Assembly: GCA_030533035.1 (NCBI GenBank)
Contig: JAUNJW010000007.1
Location: 4,266 to 18,340 of the forward strand
Length of the DNA: 14,075 nucleotides
Direction: 5' to 3'
Origin: Erysipelotrichaceae bacterium
GTDB taxonomy: Bacteria; Bacillota_I; Bacilli_A; Erysipelotrichales; Erysipelotrichaceae
Shown here: piece by piece, positions 249 to 12,518 of the stretch
How positions within the stretch are numbered: the stretch's first letter is position 1
Layout of the letters: each line of letters begins with the position of its first letter
Notes under the pieces: model-generated
What the model saw: the letters and a program-made list of their open reading frames with translations, nothing else
Told to the model about the DNA's origin: nothing
The model's database searches: none
Translations under genes and position numbers: made by a program

Positions 249-1103
249 ATGGACGAAAAACTCTGGGCTGAAATAGATGAAAAAGAACCCATTCCCGAAC
301 ATATCCGGGAAAGGATGGAACAGCTGCGCGCCAGAAGGCGGACCGTTCCGGAAGACAGGCTGATCAAGCGGCCGACAATGATCGAAGGCATCCGCAAAGC
401 CGGCATTGTCAACACCGGCGTTCTCGATGAAGTCGCAAAACATATCAAAGCCGGCATGACCACCCAGCAGATCGACGACATCGTTGTCGAATACACGCAT
501 GCCCATGGCGGCATCTGCGCCCCGTACGGCTTTGAGGGATATCCCAAGAGCGTGTGCACTTCCATCAACGAGGAAGTCTGCCACGGCATTCCTTCCAAGC
601 TGAGAAAGATCCATGACGGCGATATTATCAATGTCGACGCGACGACAATCGTTGACGGCTATTACGCCGACGCTTCCCGCATGTTCATGATCGGCAATGT
701 TTCCGAACAGAGACGGAAGCTGGTCGAAGACACAAAGAAGTGTCTTGAGCTCGGCATCGCGGCAGCCCAGCCGTGGGCGCATATCGGCGACATCGGCTAT
801 GCCATCGCGAAGTTTGCCCACAAACAGGGCTACAGCGTTGTCCGTGAACTCGGCGGACACGGCGTCGGGTGCGATTTCCATGAAGATCCCTTCGTTGCCC
901 ATGTCGGCACAAAGGGGAAGGGCATGGTTCTGGTTCCGGGCATGGTCATCACGATTGAGCCGATGATCAATCTGGGCAAGGCAGGCGTGGTCATCGATCC
1001 CTACAATGACTGGACCATTTACACGGCCGACCGCAGGGACTCCGCCCAGTGGGAGCACACCATTCTCATCACCGAAACAGGAAATGAAATCCTGACATAC
1101 TGA
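249..1103 (+). CDS. map: Type I methionine aminopeptidase with N-terminal extension
   Basis: This cytoplasmic metalloenzyme removes the initiator methionine from nascent proteins after deformylation. The 284-residue product has the full dinuclear metal site, with spacing matching the E. coli enzyme: Asp130 and Asp141 (11 apart), His204 in GGHGVG (74 after the first Asp), Glu237 in TIEPM and Glu269 in QWEHT. The substrate-site His is at about 112 in INEEVCHGIP. About 33 residues precede the point where the E. coli protein begins. This extension (roughly residues 1-35) is charged, contains a PIPEHI segment, and has no CxxC or SEC-C zinc motif. The ATG at 249 is preceded by AGGA at 240-243. The gene lies 14 nt behind dut, and a strong terminator follows at once, so it ends its transcript. 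Family assignment is very secure; the role of the extension is unknown. Confidence 0.97.
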   Translation: MDEKLWAEIDEKEPIPEHIRERMEQLRARRRTVPEDRLIKRPTMIEGIRKAGIVNTGVLDEVAKHIKAGMTTQQIDDIVVEYTHAHGGICAPYGFEGYPKSVCTSINEEVCHGIPSKLRKIHDGDIINVDATTIVDGYYADASRMFMIGNVSEQRRKLVEDTKKCLELGIAAAQPWAHIGDIGYAIAKFAHKQGYSVVRELGGHGVGCDFHEDPFVAHVGTKGKGMVLVPGMVITIEPMINLGKAGVVIDPYNDWTIYTADRRDSAQWEHTILITETGNEILTY

Positions 1104-1111
1104 CTGATCAG

Positions 1112-1143
1112 GCAGCTGTGCAGATACAGCTGCTTTTTCTTTG
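1112..1143 (+). terminator. Rho-independent terminator after map
   Basis: A perfect 8-bp stem (GCAGCTGT at 1112-1119 with ACAGCTGC at 1126-1133) encloses a 6-nt loop and runs directly into a T-rich tail (TTTTTCTTT). It starts 8 nt after the map stop codon and ends the dut-map transcript. Confidence 0.9.
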
Positions 1144-1186
1144 TGCAGGGAGCCGGCCTTTTCCCGCTCACCCCGGCCTCATCATC

Positions 1187-1195
1187 TGCTACAAT
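1187..1195 (+). promoter_or_regulatory. Extended -10 promoter for the pyrophosphatase gene
   Basis: TGC-TACAAT is an extended -10 element (TGn plus a near-consensus -10 at 1190-1195). No good -35 box is seen at the usual 17-nt spacing (CTCACC at 1167-1172 matches weakly). The transcript would start near 1202, giving a leader of about 23 nt that contains GGAGA at 1213-1217, ahead of the ATG at 1225. Confidence 0.7.
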
Positions 1196-1224
1196 ATAGG
1201 CAGTAATCAATTGGAGAGTGAATC

Positions 1225-2859
1225 ATGGATAATCATATTTATGTAACCGGTCACAGACATCCGGACAGTGACGCCATCTGTTCGGCCCTGTCTTATACCA
1301 GTCTTCTCAACCGGACCGGCAAGCCGGCGATTGCCTGCCGCCAGGGTCCGCTGAATGAAGAAACGAAATTCATCCTCAAGCGCTTCGGCCTTGAAAACCC
1401 GCTGCTGCTGACTGACGCCAGAATCACCCTGGCTGAAATGGACCTGGACAAGCCGGCGATGATCCGTCCGGACGAAACCGTCCACCACGCCTGGCATGTG
1501 ATGCTGGAAAAGCAGAACCGTATCCTGTTTGTCGGCAATGAAGACAACACGCTCGCCGGCATCGTCACCACCAGCGACCTTTCCCGGGTCAGAATCCATC
1601 CGGACGCTGATCTGGCAACCCTGATGTCGACCGCTTCCCTGTCAAATATCGCCAGGACCGTCGGCGGCCGGATCGTGACAGCACCGGAAAACTTCCGCCA
1701 GAACGGTGTTGTCTACGTCATTACCCTCGATGAGCTGGAGGTCGGCAGATACAATCTCAAAGACAGCATCGCGCTGCTTTCCTCGGACGCCGAAAAACAG
1801 AGAATGATCATCGAAAGAGGCGTGAAGCTGATGGTCATCACCTGCGGCGTGGAGGTCAGTGAAAGCGTCATTGCCCTGGCAAAGGAAAAGGACTGCGCCA
1901 TCATCGCGACCCCGCATAACACGATGCACGTCGCCAGGGTCATCACCGAAAGCTATTCGGTTGACCAGGTTATGACAAAGGATGTCATGACATTCCAGGA
2001 CAGCGAATATATCGATGAAGTCGCGGCCAAGATGTTCAATTCGAGAGTCCGTTCTTTCCCGGTCATCAACAGCAAGGGGGAGATCGCCGGCGCGATTGCC
2101 CGCTACCATACCAGAAATTACCAGAAGAGAAAGATTGCCCTGACCGACCACAGCGCAGTCAACCAGTCGATCGGCCATCTCGATTCCGCCCAGATTGTGG
2201 CGATCGTTGACCACCACCACATCGGCAATGTCACGACTGATCTGCCGATCGAATACAGAAACCACAGATGCGGCTGCACCTGCACAATCGTCACAACCCT
2301 GTTCAAAGAAGCCGGGCTGGAACCTGAACCGCAGATTGCCGGCATCATGATGTCCGCCATCCTCTCGGATACGCTGAACTTCAAGTCGGCGACCACCACC
2401 CAGGAAGACAAGGACACCGTCGCCTATCTGGCAAAGATTGCCGGCATTGAGGATGTGCAGGCCTATGCCAGGGAGATGCTCGGGGCTTCCGTCGCGCTTA
2501 AGGATTCCTCACCGCATGAGATCCTCAACCGCGACCTCAAGAACTACGAAATCGGCAAATACAAGTTTGCCATCGGCCAGACCAACTACGGCCGCATTGA
2601 AGAGGTCCAGTCCATCCTGCCGGAATTCAAGGCAAATATGGAAAAGGAACAGGCCGAAAACAAGCTCGACCTCATGGTCATGCTGTTTACGGATGTCATG
2701 GGCGAAGGCTCCCAGTTCATCTATTACGGCCCGCTGTCCGAGATCATGAAGGATGTCATCGAGACACAGTTCGATGAGCATTCCGGCTTCGACCCGAAGA
2801 TCATCTCCAGAAAGCAGCAGCTCATGCCCAAGCTTTCCGAACTGATCAAGAATCTCTGA
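1225..2859 (+). CDS. ppaC: Family II (Mn/Co-dependent) inorganic pyrophosphatase with regulatory CBS-DRTGG-CBS insert
   Basis: The enzyme hydrolyses pyrophosphate to two phosphates in the cytoplasm, driving biosynthetic reactions forward. The 544-residue chain starts with the DHH-superfamily metal motif GHRHPDSDAI (His10, Asp14, Asp16) and carries the second motif DHHHIGN (from Asp329). It ends with the DHHA2 domain and the substrate-binding SRKQQ motif (Arg529, Lys530). A regulatory insert of about 230 residues lies between the first and second metal motifs. It consists of a CBS domain (about 70-125), a DRTGG-type domain (about 133-240) and a second CBS domain (about 241-298). In characterised CBS-PPases this insert binds AMP or ADP (inhibitory) and ATP or diadenosine polyphosphates (activating); DRTGG is associated with Ap4A binding. 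That regulation is inferred here from architecture alone. The gene is monocistronic, with its own promoter, a Shine-Dalgarno 7 nt before the ATG and a terminator. Confidence 0.96.
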   Translation: MDNHIYVTGHRHPDSDAICSALSYTSLLNRTGKPAIACRQGPLNEETKFILKRFGLENPLLLTDARITLAEMDLDKPAMIRPDETVHHAWHVMLEKQNRILFVGNEDNTLAGIVTTSDLSRVRIHPDADLATLMSTASLSNIARTVGGRIVTAPENFRQNGVVYVITLDELEVGRYNLKDSIALLSSDAEKQRMIIERGVKLMVITCGVEVSESVIALAKEKDCAIIATPHNTMHVARVITESYSVDQVMTKDVMTFQDSEYIDEVAAKMFNSRVRSFPVINSKGEIAGAIARYHTRNYQKRKIALTDHSAVNQSIGHLDSAQIVAIVDHHHIGNVTTDLPIEYRNHRCGCTCTIVTTLFKEAGLEPEPQIAGIMMSAILSDTLNFKSATTTQEDKDTVAYLAKIAGIEDVQAYAREMLGASVALKDSSPHEILNRDLKNYEIGKYKFAIGQTNYGRIEEVQSILPEFKANMEKEQAENKLDLMVMLFTDVMGEGSQFIYYGPLSEIMKDVIETQFDEHSGFDPKIISRKQQLMPKLSELIKNL

Positions 2860-2884
2860 TCCGTCAGAACATCTTAAAGAGAAG

Positions 2885-2910
2885 AGCCATCTCCGGATGG
2901 CTTTTCTGTT
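2885..2910 (+). terminator. Rho-independent terminator after ppaC
   Basis: A 7-bp stem, AGCCATC (2885-2891) with GATGGCT (2896-2902), has a TCCG tetraloop and is followed by TTTTCTGTT. It begins about 25 nt after the ppaC stop. Confidence 0.85.
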
Positions 2911-2939
2911 GAGAATGACGTAATGCGGCCGCCATATTT

Positions 2940-2948
2940 TGGTAGAAT
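2940..2948 (+). promoter_or_regulatory. Extended -10 promoter immediately upstream of the hydrolase operon
   Basis: TGG-TAGAAT (2940-2948) is an extended -10 element ending only 7 nt before the ATG at 2956. Transcription starting about 7 nt past the -10 would begin at or next to the A of that ATG, giving a leaderless message. No convincing -35 box lies at 16-18 nt spacing; TTGAGA at 2909-2914 is about 28 nt away. Confidence 0.6.
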
Positions 2949-2955
2949 TATTGTT

Positions 2956-4038
2956 ATGAAGAACATGAATATTGAAGATTACCTGCTGTGGCGGGGAGAC
3001 ATACCTTTTTCAAAAGATCCGTTCAATCTTGTCGACGCGGTCATTTTCTGCGAGCTTGCCTATGTGAACTTTGAACCGGCCGGACTGCTCGGCTGCGGCG
3101 AAAAGACAATGCCGCTGAAGGAAGCCGGCAGGATCATCATGGAGAAGGACGCCTATGAGCTGAAAACTCTCAACGGCGGCGAAGAAGAATTCTTCAATCT
3201 GGCCTGGCAGTCGGAACGGTTCGGCAATGTGCTGATCCGCTATTATGAAGAGATCTTTGAACCGGAGGAGGAAGCGCAGTTTTCCGCCGTCCATTTCCAG
3301 TACGGTTCCCACGAAACCTTTGTGGCGTTCCGGGGCACCGACGCCTCGATCGTCGGCTGGCGTGAGGATTTCATGATTTCCTTCACCCTGACCCAGTCCC
3401 AGAAATACGCCGCGGAATATCTGAGCAAAACCCTGAAGCCGGACATGGTCTACAGGGTCGGCGGCCACTCCAAGGGCGGCAACCTTGCGATGTATGCATT
3501 TGCCCATCTGCCTGAAGAAAAACAGGCAATGGTTGAGCAGGTTTACGTCATGGACGCCCCGGGCTTTGCGCCGGATGTGTTTGACCGCAGCCTGCTTGAA
3601 CCGCTGAATGACAAAACCACAAAGCTGATGCCGGAGTTCTGCATCATCTCAAGAATCTATGAAGTTGAGTTTGAAAACACGGTCATCATTGACTGCACCG
3701 GCATTTCCACCCAGCAGCATGACCTGATTACCTGGCTTGTTTACGGCCCCAGGATGCGGACAAAAGAAAAGACAAATATCATCTCTGACAAAATCATGGA
3801 AGTCATCATGCGCTGGGCTTCGCATGAGTCCATTGAAAACCGTGAGATTTTTGTCCGGGAAGTCTTTGACGCGATCGGTGCCTCCGGCGCCAGGGACATC
3901 ACGAAGATTTCCGCCCGCGGCTATATGAAGATTCTCGAGGCGCTCTCAAAAACTTCGGACCAGGCCAGGGATGTGCTGGCGGATCTTGGCAGAACGCTGC
4001 TTGGCGGCGAGCAGAAAGAAGGTGCGAAAGATGCTTGA
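2956..4038 (+). CDS. Mbeg1-like (DUF2974) alpha/beta-hydrolase family protein
   Basis: This is a predicted cytoplasmic serine hydrolase of the lipase-like Mbeg1/DUF2974 group; its substrate is unknown. The 360-residue chain begins with the family's typical N-terminus (NIEDYLLWRGDIPF, then DPFNLVDAVIFCELAYVNF). It has the strand FVAFRGTD and the nucleophile elbow GHSKGG with Ser172, then YVMDAPGF, a likely site of the catalytic acid. No signal peptide or membrane segment is visible. An in-frame ATG at 2923 would add 11 residues, but it lies upstream of the -10 box and does not match the family start. ATG 2956 has no Shine-Dalgarno, and ATG 2965 is an alternative. The 3' end overlaps rnz by 8 nt. 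Co-transcription with a lipid kinase would suit a lipid-related role, but that is only inference. Confidence 0.85.
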   Translation: MKNMNIEDYLLWRGDIPFSKDPFNLVDAVIFCELAYVNFEPAGLLGCGEKTMPLKEAGRIIMEKDAYELKTLNGGEEEFFNLAWQSERFGNVLIRYYEEIFEPEEEAQFSAVHFQYGSHETFVAFRGTDASIVGWREDFMISFTLTQSQKYAAEYLSKTLKPDMVYRVGGHSKGGNLAMYAFAHLPEEKQAMVEQVYVMDAPGFAPDVFDRSLLEPLNDKTTKLMPEFCIISRIYEVEFENTVIIDCTGISTQQHDLITWLVYGPRMRTKEKTNIISDKIMEVIMRWASHESIENREIFVREVFDAIGASGARDITKISARGYMKILEALSKTSDQARDVLADLGRTLLGGEQKEGAKDA

Positions 4039-6922: not shown

Positions 6923-6950
6923 AGGAACCTGCGGGTTCCTTTTCCTGTGT
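6923..6950 (+). terminator. Rho-independent terminator of the hydrolase-rnz-kinase-peptidase operon
   Basis: A 7-bp stem, AGGAACC (6923-6929) with GGTTCCT (6934-6940), has a TGCG loop and a TTTCCTGTGT tail. It starts 13 nt after the peptidase stop. Confidence 0.88.
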
Positions 6951-6976: not shown

Positions 6977-6985
6977 TGATATAAT
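6977..6985 (+). promoter_or_regulatory. Extended -10 promoter of the GTPase-nuclease fusion gene
   Basis: TGA-TATAAT (6977-6985) is an extended -10 with a perfect -10 hexamer. It ends 8 nt before ATG 6994 and 5 nt before GTG 6991. Initiation about 7-8 nt downstream would give a message starting at or within a few bases of the start codon. No -35-like hexamer stands out at 17 nt spacing (GGCGTC), and no Shine-Dalgarno fits between. Confidence 0.7.
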
Positions 6986-6993
6986 TATTAGTG

Positions 6994-9486
6994 ATGAAAA
7001 GACTTGTGACAGGCATCGTGGCCCACGTCGATGCCGGTAAAACCACATGCATTGAAAGCATGTTATATAAATCAGGCTCCATCCGCAGACTGGGAAGGGT
7101 GGACCATAAAGACGCCTTTCTTGACTATGACGAACAGGAGCGCGACCGCGGGATCACGATCTATTCCAAGGAGGCCTGCTTCACATGGAAGGATACGGAA
7201 ATCTTTGTGATTGACACCCCCGGCCATGTCGACTTTTCGGCGGAAATGGAGCGCGCCCTGCAGGTGCTTGACCTGGCCGTCATCCTGATCAATGGCCAGG
7301 ATGGGGTGCAGTCTCATACCGAGACGATCTGGAAGTGCCTGGAACATTACAATGTGCCGGCCATCCTCTTTGTCAACAAGATGGATATTTCCTATCACAC
7401 CGAAGAAGAACTGCTGGCAGACCTGCAGAAGAAATGTTCCCCGGACTGCTTTGTCTGGGGCTCTGACGAAAGCATGGAACAGCTGGCCACCGCCAATGAG
7501 GACATGCTGGAAGTTTATCTCGGGGAAGGCACAATTCCCATGGACATGATCCGCCAGGCCGTTCTTTACCGGCAGTGTTTCCCTGTGTTATTCGGGTCTG
7601 CCCTCAAACTCAGCGGGATTGACGAACTGCTGGACGCCATCGCTTCCTGCGCCGAAGAAAAAGAATATCCGGAAGAATTCGGGGCCCGCGTCTATAAGAT
7701 TTCGGCCGATGAAAACAACGCCCGGCTGACCCATATGCGGATCACCGGCGGAAAATTAAAAGCCAGACAGCTGCTGGGGGAAGATGAAAAAGCGGATCAG
7801 ATCCGCATCTATTCCGGCAAAAGCTACCGCATGATCGATGAAGCGGAAGCCGGCATGATCGTGGCTGTCAAAGGACCTGAGCATATCGAGGCCGGCCAGG
7901 GGCTGGGGTTTGAGGAGGATTCTGAAAAGCCGCTGCTGGATCCGTACATGGATTATGAGCTGCTGCTGCCGGAAGGGGCGGACGCCCTGATGATGGCAGA
8001 GACAATCCGCCGCCTGGCCGATGAGGATCCCCAGCTTCATATCACTTCCGAAACGGACAGCGGAAAGATCCGGGTTTCCATCATGGGCGAAATGCAGATG
8101 GAAGTCCTGCAGAAAAGAATCTTTGAGCTCAGCGGCCTTCACGTCGGTTTCTCCGCCGGCGGGATTATATACAAGGAAACAATTCTTGAAGAAACCGAAG
8201 GGGCGGGCCACTTCGAACCGCTGCGCCACTATGCTGAAGTCCATGTCCGGCTGGAGCCTCTGGAAAGAGGATCCGGCATCGAAGTTGTCTCGGAGTGCTC
8301 CACTGATGTTCTCTCCGCCTCCTGGCAGCGCAGCATCCTTTCCATCCTGGAAAGAAGCCGTCACAAAGGCGTGCTGACCGGTTCCCTGCTGGATGATGTG
8401 CGCATTGTCTTGACCGCCGGCAAGGGCCATCTCAAGCATACCGAGGGCGGCGACTTCCGCCAGGCAGCCAGAAGGGCGGTCAGGCAGGCGCTGATGAAAA
8501 CAGAGTGTGTTCTGCTTGAACCGTATTATTCCTTTACCTTGACCCTGCCGTCCGCGGTTCTTTCCAGAGCGCTGTATGATCTTGAGACAAAAGGCGCCCA
8601 GGTGGAAATTTCGGACCAGAGCGATGACACGATGGTCATCAAAGGCAGGGGACCTGTGCGGACCCTGATGAATTACCAGATGGAGGTCACTGCCTATACA
8701 AGAGGCACCGGCCGCTTCACCTGCATGGCGGACGGGTATGATCTGTGCGCGGAGCAGGATGCGATAGTAAGCCGGATCGGCTACGATCCCGAAGCGGATC
8801 TGCGCAATCCCTGCGGTTCGGTCTTCTGTGCCCATGGTTCCGGCTACTACGTGCCCTGGGACAAGGCGGACGCCTTAATGCATGTGCAGCCGCAGAAGGA
8901 AAGAAGCACCTCCTCTTACCGGACACGGGCATACAAAGTCCAGGAAGAGGATCTGATGAATGTGCTGAAATCTGCCGGCGGCAACAACCGCAACGAGAAA
9001 AAGCGCGACACCCGAAAGGTGAAGCCGAAAGCGCCGGAGGAAAAGAAACAGAAGCCGGTACTAAAGAAAGAACTGCCGCCGTGCCTGATCGTCGACGGAT
9101 ACAACATGATCTATTCCTGGGACGAGCTCAAGGAACTCGGCGAAACCGACATCACGACCGCGCGGGAGATGTTAATCGATGAGCTGCTGGCCTACCAGGC
9201 TTATCTGAAGTGGCATATGATCATCGTCTTTGACGGCTATAAGGTGCAGGGCAACACCGGCACCCATATCCGCCAGAAGAACGTCGAGATCGTCTATACC
9301 AGAACCAATGAAACCGCCGATGAGTATATCCAGAAGATCGCGGCCGAACTGAGGAACACCTATGACATCACGGTCGCTTCCTCGGACGCCCTGATCCAGA
9401 ACGCTGTCTTTGCCCAGGGAGCCCTGCGCATGAGTTCCCGTGAACTGCTGTCAAGAATTGAACTTCTGAAAAAGGAATTCGTTTAG
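6994..9486 (+). CDS. TetM-like translational GTPase fused to a Rae1/YacP-type NYN endoribonuclease domain
   Basis: The 830-residue protein joins two ribosome-related modules. Residues 1 to about 630 form a complete EF-G/TetM-type GTPase: P-loop AHVDAGKTT (10-18), switch I RGITI (52-56), DTPGH (74-78), NKMD (128-131) and GSAL (G5), then beta-barrel domain II. The EF-G-type domains III-V follow, with HTEGGDFR in domain IV and LEPYYSF introducing domain V. A Lys/Glu-rich, probably flexible linker occupies about 632-697. Residues 698-830 match B. subtilis Rae1 (YacP) motif for motif: VDGYNM (Asp701), VFDGYKVQG (Asp747), NETADEYI (Asp776), SSD (Asp798), then QGALRMSSREL. Rae1 cleaves mRNA in the ribosomal A site during translation, and TetM-type GTPases enter the same site, so a ribosome-targeted nuclease is the natural inference. 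The domain IV tip differs from TetM, so tetracycline resistance should not be assumed. ATG 6994 is preferred to GTG 6991; neither has a Shine-Dalgarno. Confidence 0.92.
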   Translation: MKRLVTGIVAHVDAGKTTCIESMLYKSGSIRRLGRVDHKDAFLDYDEQERDRGITIYSKEACFTWKDTEIFVIDTPGHVDFSAEMERALQVLDLAVILINGQDGVQSHTETIWKCLEHYNVPAILFVNKMDISYHTEEELLADLQKKCSPDCFVWGSDESMEQLATANEDMLEVYLGEGTIPMDMIRQAVLYRQCFPVLFGSALKLSGIDELLDAIASCAEEKEYPEEFGARVYKISADENNARLTHMRITGGKLKARQLLGEDEKADQIRIYSGKSYRMIDEAEAGMIVAVKGPEHIEAGQGLGFEEDSEKPLLDPYMDYELLLPEGADALMMAETIRRLADEDPQLHITSETDSGKIRVSIMGEMQMEVLQKRIFELSGLHVGFSAGGIIYKETILEETEGAGHFEPLRHYAEVHVRLEPLERGSGIEVVSECSTDVLSASWQRSILSILERSRHKGVLTGSLLDDVRIVLTAGKGHLKHTEGGDFRQAARRAVRQALMKTECVLLEPYYSFTLTLPSAVLSRALYDLETKGAQVEISDQSDDTMVIKGRGPVRTLMNYQMEVTAYTRGTGRFTCMADGYDLCAEQDAIVSRIGYDPEADLRNPCGSVFCAHGSGYYVPWDKADALMHVQPQKERSTSSYRTRAYKVQEEDLMNVLKSAGGNNRNEKKRDTRKVKPKAPEEKKQKPVLKKELPPCLIVDGYNMIYSWDELKELGETDITTAREMLIDELLAYQAYLKWHMIIVFDGYKVQGNTGTHIRQKNVEIVYTRTNETADEYIQKIAAELRNTYDITVASSDALIQNAVFAQGALRMSSRELLSRIELLKKEFV

Positions 9487-9496: not shown

Positions 9497-10195
9497 ATGA
9501 CTGAAAAGAAACCGCCGAAAATCCACCCTGTGAAATGGGTCCGCCTCGGTCTCTTCACGGCTGCCGCCATTTTCCTTCTGCTGGCATTCAGCCATATGCC
9601 TTCCATTCAGAATATTATTATGCCGGATCATGCCGCCGCCCCTGATGACGTCATGGGCTACAAAGATTCGGAAATCACCGAAATCATCGCCACCGAAAAC
9701 CGCGAGCTGAAACAGCTGATCGTCTATGAGCAGGATGTCGAAGCCGCCATGGACATCACGGACATGTTCCTGGACATTGAGTGGTTCAAAAAGAAACAGA
9801 CCGTTCATCTGACCGCCACCGCGGAATATATCATTGACCTGGCAAAGATCACGGAGGACGATGTCTCCGTCAACCGGGCGGACAGAATCATCACCGTGAC
9901 AATTCCAAGGGCGGAGCTCAAGAATGTCGTGATTGATTTCTCCAAAACCACCTTCGATGACATTGAGCGCAACATCTTCGGCTGGGGCGATATCAAGCTC
10001 ACCCCGGAACAGACCAACGAAGTGGAAAAAGACCTGCAGGAAGCCCTTTTGGAGGAGGCGTCGCAGACGCCGTATCTTACCTCAGCCGACCTGGCCGGCA
10101 TGCGCCAGGTGGAGGCTGTCTACAGAAAGGTGCTCACCAATCTGAACAGCCAGGCCCAGATCGTTGCTGTCCTGGAGATGGATCAGAACAACTGA
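9497..10195 (+). CDS. Membrane-anchored DUF4230 family protein
   Basis: This is a 232-residue protein of the DUF4230 family, whose biochemical role is unknown. A short basic cytoplasmic tail (residues 1-16, EKKPPKIHPVKWVR) precedes one hydrophobic segment (about 17-32, LGLFTAAAIFLLLAFS), giving a predicted N-in, C-out single-pass anchor. The extracytoplasmic part (about 60-220) shows the family pattern: EITEIIATENRELKQLIVYEQ, then TATAEYIIDLAKITEDDVSVNR, ITVTIPRAEL, and a helical C-terminal region. No catalytic motif or lipobox is visible. It follows the GTPase-nuclease gene by 10 nt with an overlapping stop and Shine-Dalgarno, and a terminator follows at once, so it is the second and last gene of that operon. 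Whether it works with the GTPase-nuclease or is only co-transcribed is open. Confidence 0.82.
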   Translation: MTEKKPPKIHPVKWVRLGLFTAAAIFLLLAFSHMPSIQNIIMPDHAAAPDDVMGYKDSEITEIIATENRELKQLIVYEQDVEAAMDITDMFLDIEWFKKKQTVHLTATAEYIIDLAKITEDDVSVNRADRIITVTIPRAELKNVVIDFSKTTFDDIERNIFGWGDIKLTPEQTNEVEKDLQEALLEEASQTPYLTSADLAGMRQVEAVYRKVLTNLNSQAQIVAVLEMDQNN

Positions 10196-10222
10196 CACAG
10201 CGGAAACGCTGTGTTTTCTCTT
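10195..10222 (+). terminator. Rho-independent terminator starting at the DUF4230 stop codon
   Basis: A perfect 8-bp stem, ACACAGCG (10195-10202) with CGCTGTGT (10207-10214), is closed by a GAAA (GNRA) tetraloop and followed by TTTCTCTT. The first stem base is the A of the TGA stop codon (10193-10195), so a ribosome terminating there would sit on the hairpin's left arm. Confidence 0.9.
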
Positions 10223-10290: not shown

Positions 10291-10653
10291 ATGAATACTC
10301 CGAAAATCCACGAAAGTGAATACCGGTTCTGTGAAGTTTTATGGGCAAACGAGCCTGTCAACAGCACGGAACTTGTGGCCCTGTGCAAAGAAAAACTCGG
10401 CTGGTCCAAAGCCACCACCTATACAGTGATCCGCCGCCTGTGCGAAAGAGGGGTATGCCGCAGTGAGAACGCTGTTGTCACCTCCCTGGTCTCAAAGGAA
10501 GAAGCGGAGGTTTCTGAAATTGACGAATTGATGGAAAAGAAATTCGGCGGCTCCCTGCCGGCATTCATCGCTGCCATTGCCAGACAAGAAAAGCTGAATG
10601 ACAAAGATATTGCAGAGCTTGAAGCGCTGATCCGGGCAAAGAAAGGGGAATGA
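10291..10653 (+). CDS. BlaI/MecI/CopY family transcriptional repressor
   Basis: This is a 120-residue winged-helix repressor, the usual length for BlaI and MecI. The N-terminal DNA-binding domain (about 1-75) shows ESEYRFCEVLWANEPVNSTEL and the recognition-helix region GWSKATTYTVIRRLCERG. The C-terminal helical dimerisation part (about 76-117) has MEKKFGGSLPAFIAAIA and DIAELEALI. Ala91-Phe92 lies where the Asn101-Phe102 bond of staphylococcal BlaI is cut during induction, so proteolytic inactivation is plausible but unproven. The ATG at 10291 has AAAGGAG 5 nt upstream. It probably represses its own operon through the twin dyads at 10231-10275. The stop overlaps the first possible start of the M56 sensor, the standard arrangement for such pairs. 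Whether it also controls distant genes cannot be seen. Confidence 0.93.
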   Translation: MNTPKIHESEYRFCEVLWANEPVNSTELVALCKEKLGWSKATTYTVIRRLCERGVCRSENAVVTSLVSKEEAEVSEIDELMEKKFGGSLPAFIAAIARQEKLNDKDIAELEALIRAKKGE

Positions 10654-10655
10654 GT

Positions 10656-12518
10656 ATGGAAGCACTGTTCCTGAGATATCTCAATCTTTCTCTCCGCGCC
10701 TGCTGGCTGATTCTTTTCATCCTGCTGATCCGCGCCGTCTTTTCCAGAGCGCCGGGGAAATACCGTTTCTTCCTATGGGCGGCCCTGGGCCTGCGGCTGC
10801 TGTGCCCGCTGACATTTGAAAGCGCTGTTTCACTGCTTCCCAAAGGGGATGCGGTTCCTATGGATATTTCCATGTCGCGGATCCCGCAGATTGATACCGG
10901 TGTGCGGATCATCAACCAGACTGTCAACCCGGTCCTCATTTCCAGATTTGCGCCGTCTCCCGGTGACAGCGTCAATCCGCTGCAGGTCTGGAACTATATC
11001 GCTTCCATTGTCTGGATTGCGGGTATGGCATGCCTCATCCTGTATCTCGTCATTTCCTCCGTCCTGATCCATAACAGAATGAAGGAAGCGGTTCTGCTGT
11101 ATGACAATGTCTATGAAAGCGAAAGAACGGATTCCGCCTTTGTCTTCGGAATCCTGAAACCGAAAATCTATCTGCCTCTGCATCTTTCCGATTCCGAGAA
11201 ACGGTATATCATTGCCCATGAGAAAGGCCATATTGCCCATGGCGACCACATCCTGAAGCCGCTGGCTTTCCTGGTCCTGTCCGTCCACTGGTACAATCCG
11301 CTGGTCTGGCTGGCATACCGCCTGTTTACCCGTGACATTGAATACGCGTGCGATGAAACCGTACTTTCCGGATTAAGTGAAAATGAACATGCGGATTACG
11401 CGGCTGTTCTTCTGAAAAGCGCTGCCCGCGGCCATCTCATGATATCGCCGGCTGCCTTCGGCGAATCGGATGTCAAGGGCCGGATCAGAACAGTTCTGGA
11501 TTACCGGAAGCCTTCTTTCTGGGCCGGGATTGTCCTGCTGGTATGCGCCGTGATTGCGGCGGTCAGCTTCCTGTCCGATCCGGTTAAAAAAGATGAGCGC
11601 ACAGAACCGGAACCCATACCTGACGTGACGCCGGAGCCGGCGGCTGAAAAAACGCTTGAAATGGAAGAGGAGCGTACGGAAGAACCGTACACGGTTCATT
11701 ACAGAACTTCGGACAAAGCATATCTTGACCGTTTTGAATCGCTTCTCGTCGCAGTCATGAACGCAGACGATGAGGGAATTGCTGAGCTGAACGCAGACGG
11801 TGAATATGACAATATCATGGATTTCCGGCTGGACAGCGGGGCAGGTTTCTTCGGCTTCCAGGCCGGCAGATTCCCGCACGGCTCTGTTATGTACGAGAAT
11901 GTGCTGTACGTTGAAGCCGGCACAAAAACCGGCGGAAAAGTGACAGCCCGCAGGGCATATCTGATACCGGCTGATTCTGAAACCGCAAAGGAAATGCAGG
12001 AGTTTGTCAATGAGATCCGCTCCGCTTCCTCCTCACAGACCTATGATCCTGCCCGTGATCCGGAAAGTATCAGGACCGCCATGAACAGGCTGGGCAGCCC
12101 GGAGGAATACGGCATCCCGTTCTGCAAACACTTCGAGATGAGCAATATGGAAGCCTGGGATGAATTCATGAATCTCGTTAACGCAGGCATCCCGTGTTCC
12201 ACTTACGTCGCCAGCTATACAATCGAGGGGGATATTATTTACAGCTATCTCCAGTATGACGGCAATGATTTCTTCTTCGCGGTGGATTCTTCAAGGGACA
12301 AGTTCGGCGGGGATGAGGATTTCTTTTACACACAGAAGAAACATATCTCGTATGTGCAGGATGTCATCACCGATGAAAGCGACGGCAGGAAGTTCGATAC
12401 GTACACCGCTGTGCTTGCCGATGAACAGTACGGCACCTATGAAGAAATCAGGCAGGCCCAGTTAAGGGAAGATGATGTCTGGTGGATCTGGGGTTTTCAG
12501 AAAGTACATGAAAACTGA
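10656..12518 (+). CDS. BlaR1/MecR1-type M56 family membrane metalloprotease sensor with unrecognised extracytoplasmic domain
   Basis: This is a predicted integral membrane sensor-protease that, by analogy with BlaR1, would trigger loss of its partner repressor after sensing an external signal. The 620-residue chain has hydrophobic segments at about 9-26, 36-53, 110-138, 195-220 and 288-306. The cytoplasmic M56 zinc site is HEKGH (His188, Glu189, His192), with a probable third ligand Glu229 in EYACDE. VLDYRKPSFW precedes the last membrane span, as is usual in this family. Residues from about 309 begin with a Pro/Glu-rich stretch and form an outer domain of about 310 residues. I see no penicillin-binding SxxK, SxN or KTG set there, so beta-lactam sensing is not supported. 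ATG 10656 was chosen over ATG 10650 because AAGGGG at 10643-10648 is 7 nt away and the protein then starts MEALFLRYLN, as relatives do. Either start overlaps or abuts the repressor stop. Confidence 0.88.
   Translation: MEALFLRYLNLSLRACWLILFILLIRAVFSRAPGKYRFFLWAALGLRLLCPLTFESAVSLLPKGDAVPMDISMSRIPQIDTGVRIINQTVNPVLISRFAPSPGDSVNPLQVWNYIASIVWIAGMACLILYLVISSVLIHNRMKEAVLLYDNVYESERTDSAFVFGILKPKIYLPLHLSDSEKRYIIAHEKGHIAHGDHILKPLAFLVLSVHWYNPLVWLAYRLFTRDIEYACDETVLSGLSENEHADYAAVLLKSAARGHLMISPAAFGESDVKGRIRTVLDYRKPSFWAGIVLLVCAVIAAVSFLSDPVKKDERTEPEPIPDVTPEPAAEKTLEMEEERTEEPYTVHYRTSDKAYLDRFESLLVAVMNADDEGIAELNADGEYDNIMDFRLDSGAGFFGFQAGRFPHGSVMYENVLYVEAGTKTGGKVTARRAYLIPADSETAKEMQEFVNEIRSASSSQTYDPARDPESIRTAMNRLGSPEEYGIPFCKHFEMSNMEAWDEFMNLVNAGIPCSTYVASYTIEGDIIYSYLQYDGNDFFFAVDSSRDKFGGDEDFFYTQKKHISYVQDVITDESDGRKFDTYTAVLADEQYGTYEEIRQAQLREDDVWWIWGFQKVHEN

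Follow-up and report, generated by a model that had tools for sequence, protein, structure and literature searches.

The DNA analysed here, which we call the window, is a stretch of 14,075 nucleotides from an Erysipelotrichaceae bacterium (GenBank assembly GCA_030533035.1, contig JAUNJW010000007.1, positions 4,266 to 18,340 of the forward strand). It contains a gene that joins a translational GTPase to a nuclease domain of the NYN_YacP type, the type of the Bacillus subtilis protein Rae1 (Table 1). A structure search with the predicted model of the fusion matched residues 1–598 to EF-G chains; the 50 rows shown for the full-length model are EF-G, EF-2, RF3 and spliceosomal chains, with TetM not among them, a list that excludes nothing. 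The nuclease domain scores 148.2 bits against the Pfam profile NYN_YacP (curated cut-off 24.6), matches the Rae1 fold, and its aspartates at 701, 747, 776 and 798 align with those of YacP. Between the two halves, the predicted local distance difference test score (pLDDT) of the structure model falls below 50 at residues 635–649, 662–667 and 669–687. Measured from Trp622, the linker has a median length of 72 residues.

Table 1. The fusion gene and its features, in window coordinates
Feature	Position	Strand	Remarks
TATAAT, 8 nt before the start codon, with TG ahead of it	6980..6985	+	without Shine-Dalgarno
Fusion gene (translational GTPase joined to NYN_YacP nuclease of Rae1 type)	6994..9486	+	single intact frame, 830 aa
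G domain, residues 5-220	7006..7653	+	P-loop AHVDAGKTT, switch I RGITI, switch II DTPGHVD and NKMD all present
EF-G-type domains II, III, IV and V, residues 229-588	7678..8757	+	Pfam; domain II slightly below cut-off
Subfamily motif GHFEPLRHYAE, residues 405-415, start of domain IV	8206..8238	+	
Subfamily motif KHTEGGDFR, residues 481-489, domain IV tip loop	8434..8460	+	
GTPase C-terminal extension, residues 589-634, S[VI]FC..G....W	8758..8895	+	also in unfused relatives
Linker, residues 635-695, basic, mostly disordered	8896..9078	+	composition, length, pLDDT
Linker helix, residues 651-661	8944..8976	+	model helix; column conservation
NYN_YacP nuclease domain, residues 698-828	9085..9477	+	end about 30 residues short of usual
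Asp701, counterpart of the first active-site Asp in Rae1	9094..9096	+	
Asp747, active-site Asp	9232..9234	+	
Asp776, active-site Asp	9319..9321	+	
Asp798, active-site Asp	9385..9387	+	

The fusion is real and keeps both catalytic sites. In an alignment of 113 sequences of at least 800 amino acids, the window's protein included, Lys16, Thr75, His78 and Lys129 of the GTPase and Asp701, Asn704, Asp747, Asp776 and Asp798 of the nuclease are invariant in all 113, and none of these sequences carries a substitution of the four active-site aspartates; some neighbours of invariant residues, such as Ile54, Asp80 and Met130, each differ in a single sequence. The initial annotation had read the locus as an intact GTPase fused in one frame to a Rae1/YacP-type domain with its acidic residues kept, and had supposed that similar fusions may exist as database entries in other Bacillota. 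Both statements hold. A search with the NYN region, limited to proteins of comparable total length, returned 1,209 matches, 120 of which are listed with EF-G-type domains plus NYN, and the fusion occurs in Erysipelotrichales and across Clostridia, in Erysipelotrichaceae, Lachnospiraceae, Oscillospiraceae, Clostridiaceae, Desulfitobacteriaceae and other families. Among the best 80 of at least 595 relatives found in a scan of named genomes, 79 loci encode the fusion in one frame and the remaining one is cut by a contig end. An assembly error or frameshift joining two genes, a danger named at the outset, could point to two broken-frame copies elsewhere (G045 and G675) and to nothing in the window copy. 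Conservation of the fusion in independent assemblies rules this artefact out, and we give it a negligible chance.

The fusion appears to take the place of a stand-alone rae1 gene, and the two exclude each other. Whether genomes with the fusion lack a separate rae1 had been posed as a check, and the answer is the same by gene counts and by gene order. The genome from which the window comes, 84% complete, matches the NYN_YacP profile once, in the fusion itself. Across the order, 105 of 148 genomes have a match, one each, and 95 of these lie in frames of at least 700 amino acids; the ten short frames comprise five that are seemingly contig-cut (G071, G101, G038, G132 and G133, the first three judged by position only), two without domains IV and V, two with NYN only and one with a frame break between GTPase and NYN. 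Samples of the window's class (20 of 198 genomes above the cut-off) and phylum (39 of 392, with frames of 819 amino acids or more except for two of 615 and 160) share genomes with the order set. In a clostridial class, 188 of 291 genomes exceed the cut-off: 99 carry the fusion, 84 a stand-alone gene, and five with cut or broken frames of 313–618 amino acids were set aside. No genome among the 291 has both, against 28.6 expected under independence, a figure uncorrected for kinship. The count of 84 includes G848, in which a 760-amino-acid frame runs into a contig end while the NYN lies close to the end of another contig; this is probably a contig-split fusion, and 83 would be fairer. One genome of this class, G757, has two fusions. 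In a second class, 40 of 82 genomes exceed the cut-off, with 29 matches of fused length, nine stand-alone and two fragments.

Gene order leads to the same conclusion. Among 37 stand-alone loci, an incidental sample, rlmB precedes rae1 in 32, sigH follows it in 29, and both hold in 25. By contrast, no rae1 lies within 1.5 kb of rlmB, upstream or downstream, in any of 30 hand-chosen fusion genomes, the window's included; in 22 of them the first recognised gene after rlmB is sigH, and the window's own genome reads mrnC, rlmB, sigH at this operon (L233). A DGYN string at the front of the sigH frame in one of the 30 (L221) was taken as chance. Operon genes were named by similarity to open reading frames labelled after the B. 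subtilis operon, and rlmB was identified with TIGR00186. A passage of PMC6613710 reports that B. subtilis transcribes yacO, its rlmB homologue, together with rae1 and that both genes work in the same pathway. The surroundings of stand-alone rae1, which adjoins rlmB and often mrnC, both rRNA genes (names again by similarity), could instead suggest that the NYN domain trims or cuts rRNA or tRNA while the GTPase serves in ribosome assembly or recycling, and a maturation role for YacP-like NYN domains has been proposed (cited in a passage of Atkinson 2015, PMC4342817). Against this, B. subtilis Rae1 is described, in a passage of PMC10100781, as a translation-dependent mRNA nuclease, and we hold a role in RNA maturation to be very unlikely.

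By its sequence, the GTPase is a distinct subfamily, well under the NCBI standard for tetracycline protection. It scores 392 bits against the NCBIfam model tet_protect, whose cut-off is 775, where unfused relatives reach 408–427 and a control ribosomal protection protein (RPP; L177) reaches 892; against the NCBIfam model for EF-G it scores 281 bits with a cut-off of 659.4. Of 237 fetched proteins with 450 amino acids or more, 232 contain the pattern GxGHxEPLxHY, and a motif of the GHFEPLRHYAE type is absent from the control RPP, two RPP-like rows and one EF-G row of the alignment. This motif and KHTxGGDFR mark fused and unfused members alike, the latter being GTPases of about 650 amino acids from some clostridia that lack the NYN domain. 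At the tip of domain IV, the window's KHTEGGDFR stands against STPADFR in TetM and the control RPP and DSSEMAFK in the EF-G row. The fusion resembles TetM and TetO in its G domain and the order of domains II–V, and TetM is its best solved match (247 bits); it differs from them in falling below their family cut-off, in its domain IV motifs, in its place on the tree, and in having an additional C-terminal extension and a nuclease. From EF-G it differs in falling below that family's cut-off and in lacking a tip loop of the DSSEMAFK type.

Phylogenetic trees agree with this separation. By the Shimodaira–Hasegawa-like approximate likelihood ratio test (SH-aLRT), the subfamily stands apart from three RPP-like rows (99), with 12 unfused genome copies grouped together (92) and the fused copies in a set of their own (98); five metagenomic proteins that lack NYN are placed within the latter set and are possibly real losses. 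In the NYN tree, fused domains form one set among clostridial Rae1 rows (SH-aLRT 97), with two stand-alone rows inside it, the short NYN fragment P0159 and L143. These trees came from quick searches and have many open forks, with warnings on long branches and letter composition. There is one main fusion lineage, most simply explained by a single fusion event.

This placement bears on antibiotic resistance as an explanation. Atkinson 2015 (PMC4342817), in the relevant passage, describes ten clostridial species whose Tet proteins have gained a YacP-like NYN domain and suggests a possible new resistance mechanism, in which an RPP that removes tetracycline-like drugs would use the RNase activity. 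The shared domain plan, TetM as the closest solved protein and the label of tetracycline protection protein on some database relatives favour this idea. We rejected membership in the tetracycline-protection family on the score of 392 against 775 bits (892 for the control RPP) and the tip loop, KHTEGGDFR in place of STPADFR; the separate set on the tree also argues against resistance, as does its usual presence as a lone copy in genomes that lack rae1. Furthermore, the ten listed of 23 plasmid records with an NYN match include only two under a GTPase-named gene. We therefore regard resistance as improbable. The kinship with drug-displacing TetM proteins suggested in the initial annotation is not supported: the GTPase forms a subfamily of its own, has distinct domain IV motifs and lies far under the tet_protect cut-off, which also leaves the annotation's picture of a drug-bound ribosome without support here.

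Plasmids also carry a GTPase that resembles the subfamily. In Ligilactobacillus salivarius, 17 plasmid records among the matches listed (H14–H30), mostly named tetracycline protection protein, encode a GTPase that is 46–47% identical over domains IV–V only and probably belongs, by this similarity, to the unfused members. The 23 plasmid records with an NYN match include no Ligilactobacillus. Twelve of them are Clostridioides, and NZ_CP149721.1, NZ_CP149712.1 and NZ_CP149680.1, from Clostridioides difficile, are records of 96–99 kb filed as plasmids with a rae1-like NYN gene.

With somewhat better than even confidence, we read the fusion as its host's only Rae1, permanently tethered to a Tet-like GTPase that is not specific to tetracycline and cutting in the ribosomal A site under the control of GTP. 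The Tet-like GTPase probably brings the Rae1 nuclease to ribosomes; we infer ribosome binding, GTP gating, mRNA as the target and cutting in the A site. In its GTP form, the GTPase would bind the factor site of ribosomes with an empty or blocked A site, and GTP hydrolysis would let it swing away or leave. The NYN domain, whose linker of some 70 residues includes a small docking helix, would then enter the vacated A site and cut the mRNA, so that the transcript would be freed for decay and the ribosome for rescue. The linker should in principle be long enough to bridge the factor site and the decoding centre.

Several observations weigh against this reading. EF-G-type GTPases place domain IV in the ribosomal A site, and there it would compete with Rae1; as the two domains would hardly fit into one A site, occupancy would have to be sequential (or alternative). 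The main doubt for the window copy concerns its end, which lacks about 30 C-terminal residues: the protein covers positions 1–133 of the 166 in the NYN_YacP profile and has 32 residues after Asp798, where the medians are 62 for fused and 65 for stand-alone proteins and the shortest fused end is 30 (loci in these counts overlap, so totals are not independent). A passage of PMC6613710 lists R166P, in the region lost here, among loss-of-function suppressors of B. subtilis. Because the full-length end is missing, we file the domain as Rae1-like and not as Rae1 proper. Compared with B. subtilis Rae1/YacP (5mq8, 5mq9), the window's domain is also fused to a GTPase, has an added linker helix and is encoded away from rlmB and sigH.

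Other doubts come from distribution. In the clostridial class, 103 of the 291 genomes show no NYN match above the cut-off, and the function is therefore not needed in all genomes. A tree of rlmB requires at least six switches between fused and stand-alone states, of which well-supported branches force two, and mutual exclusion rests on few independent switches. Second matches of about 21 bits, under the cut-off and in another frame, in three fused genomes (G760, G825 and G866) and in G534 were taken as noise. Unfused family GTPases show no clear co-occurrence with rae1, being found in 10 of 65 stand-alone genomes (56 of the 84 in the first class and nine of nine in the second; 64 is fairer in view of G848) and in one of 12 without a listed NYN, these 12 drawn from 102 genomes without a match.

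Further doubts come from relatives that have shed parts of the GTPase. One genus of the window's family has NYN in 32 of 36 genomes, with the full-length fusion in 22, one of which has two. Two genomes (G006 and G100) join domains I–III to the linker and NYN without domains IV and V, as read from tblastn and translations rather than Pfam, and six have NYN alone in frames of 201–226 residues; two further frames are cut by contig ends. Neither the six nor the two shortened genomes contain the subfamily's domains IV–V anywhere, the best match being 99 bits, at EF-G level, in a search confined to these domains; two full-length genomes of the genus gave 126 and 167 bits as controls, a narrow gap. 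By eye, the linker helix is kept in the shortened and NYN-only relatives that were read (L236–L239; NYN-only G145 and G135), and the two NYN-only relatives retain all four aspartates. The persistence of NYN without domains IV–V, or without any GTPase, means that the GTPase is not indispensable everywhere; as the nuclease outlives the GTPase, cutting would be the core function and the GTPase an aid.

Two loci may record splits of other kinds. In L240 (G045, 1030–3476), the GTPase and NYN frames overlap in different phases, as a split gene pair or a sequencing error. The clostridial genome G867 (L143 / L245) has a separate NYN of 173 amino acids from its ATG (frame 190), away from rlmB and sigH, which groups inside the fused NYN set, together with an unfused GTPase that belongs to the other set; judged by this grouping, it is likely a secondary split.

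These forms lend some weight to a loose tether, in which NYN does the work of Rae1 alone, the GTPase has a separate ribosomal job, and fusion provides no more than equal amounts and proximity, with no GTP-gated delivery. The NYN-only relatives with their helix and aspartates, the arrangement in G867 and the presence of unfused GTPases both with and without rae1 would all suit it. Against it stand the persistence of the fusion over many families with both sites invariant and the apparent rarity of splits among the closest 80 loci. We consider a loose tether rather unlikely. A sharper form of the GTP-gated reading is a GTP-clocked mRNA cutter, which we advance only tentatively. Here a dedicated subfamily of translational GTPases would probe ribosomes, and hydrolysis would time when the tethered nuclease enters the A site; cuts would then fall on stalled ribosomes and spare translating ones, and in the form without domains IV–V the nuclease would take the place of the A-site finger. 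If true, this would be, to our knowledge, the first known translational GTPase with a built-in mRNA-cutting effector, and it would explain how enzymes of the Rae1 type are recruited in these bacteria.

The start region of the gene suggests an unusual transcript. With TATAAT so close to the ATG (window 6980–6993) and no Shine-Dalgarno sequence, the fusion mRNA may be leaderless. Among 12 Erysipelotrichaceae starts, the window's included, seven have a TATAAT-like hexamer 4–14 nucleotides upstream (1.15 expected from shuffling), compared with three of 62 clostridial starts (7.2 expected) and eight of 94 other genes of the same loci; a Shine-Dalgarno sequence precedes two of the 12 Erysipelotrichaceae starts and 38 of the 62 clostridial ones, the choice of start codon being crude throughout these counts. 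Between an S58 peptidase gene and the fusion lies a hairpin, GGAACC-TGCG-GGTTCC followed by TTTT (6924–6943), seen by eye and not in the scan list, that could end the upstream transcript just ahead of the promoter-like site. Downstream, a DUF4230 gene with a good Shine-Dalgarno sequence (9497–10195) starts 10 nucleotides past the fusion and is followed by a terminator-like hairpin (10194–10215), an arrangement in which the two genes may share a transcript.

The neighbourhood is otherwise not conserved. A similar DUF4230 gene occurs in one of the 80 fetched loci, that of the nearest relative (L018), and no flanking gene cluster keeps one place beside the fusion in more than three loci among the 80 and the window. 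Where the window's neighbours recur at all, they do so in L018, and one also in L092. The window also encodes a pair of a BlaI-type repressor and a BlaR1-type M56 peptidase with a C-terminal DUF4362 (10291–12518), and a DHH-DHHA2 phosphatase with inserted CBS and DRTGG domains (1225–2859), which we take to be of the pyrophosphatase type. No Rfam family reaches its gathering score within the window.

The pairing of EF-G-type domains with a YacP-like NYN domain is the architecture described in the passage of Atkinson 2015, and the window's protein has it. Since the domain pair has been in print since 2015, the architecture was known; new, as far as our literature searches go, are its exclusion of rae1, the status of its GTPase as a separate subfamily and the natural deletion series. 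Relative to the proteins in that passage, the fusion is found here also in Erysipelotrichales and across Clostridia, excludes rae1 and stands apart from tetracycline protection proteins. The searches, with the main Rae1 papers outside their reach, found no functional study of the fused protein and no paper other than Atkinson 2015 naming the domain pair; Condon 2018, on the distribution of Rae1, may already mention the fusion.

As far as we found, the literature gives no answer to how Rae1 is brought to particular ribosomes. The relatives form a natural deletion series (full length, without domains IV–V, nuclease alone and GTPase alone), so that, together with the exclusion of rae1, existing proteins could serve for direct tests of recruitment and of GTP gating. 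The findings also give reason to rename proteins now called tetracycline resistance factors in databases, as misnamed relatives could inflate resistance-gene counts in gut metagenomes. In many gut bacteria, the nuclease is built into a GTPase of a ribosome-binding type, and the separate gene is lacking.
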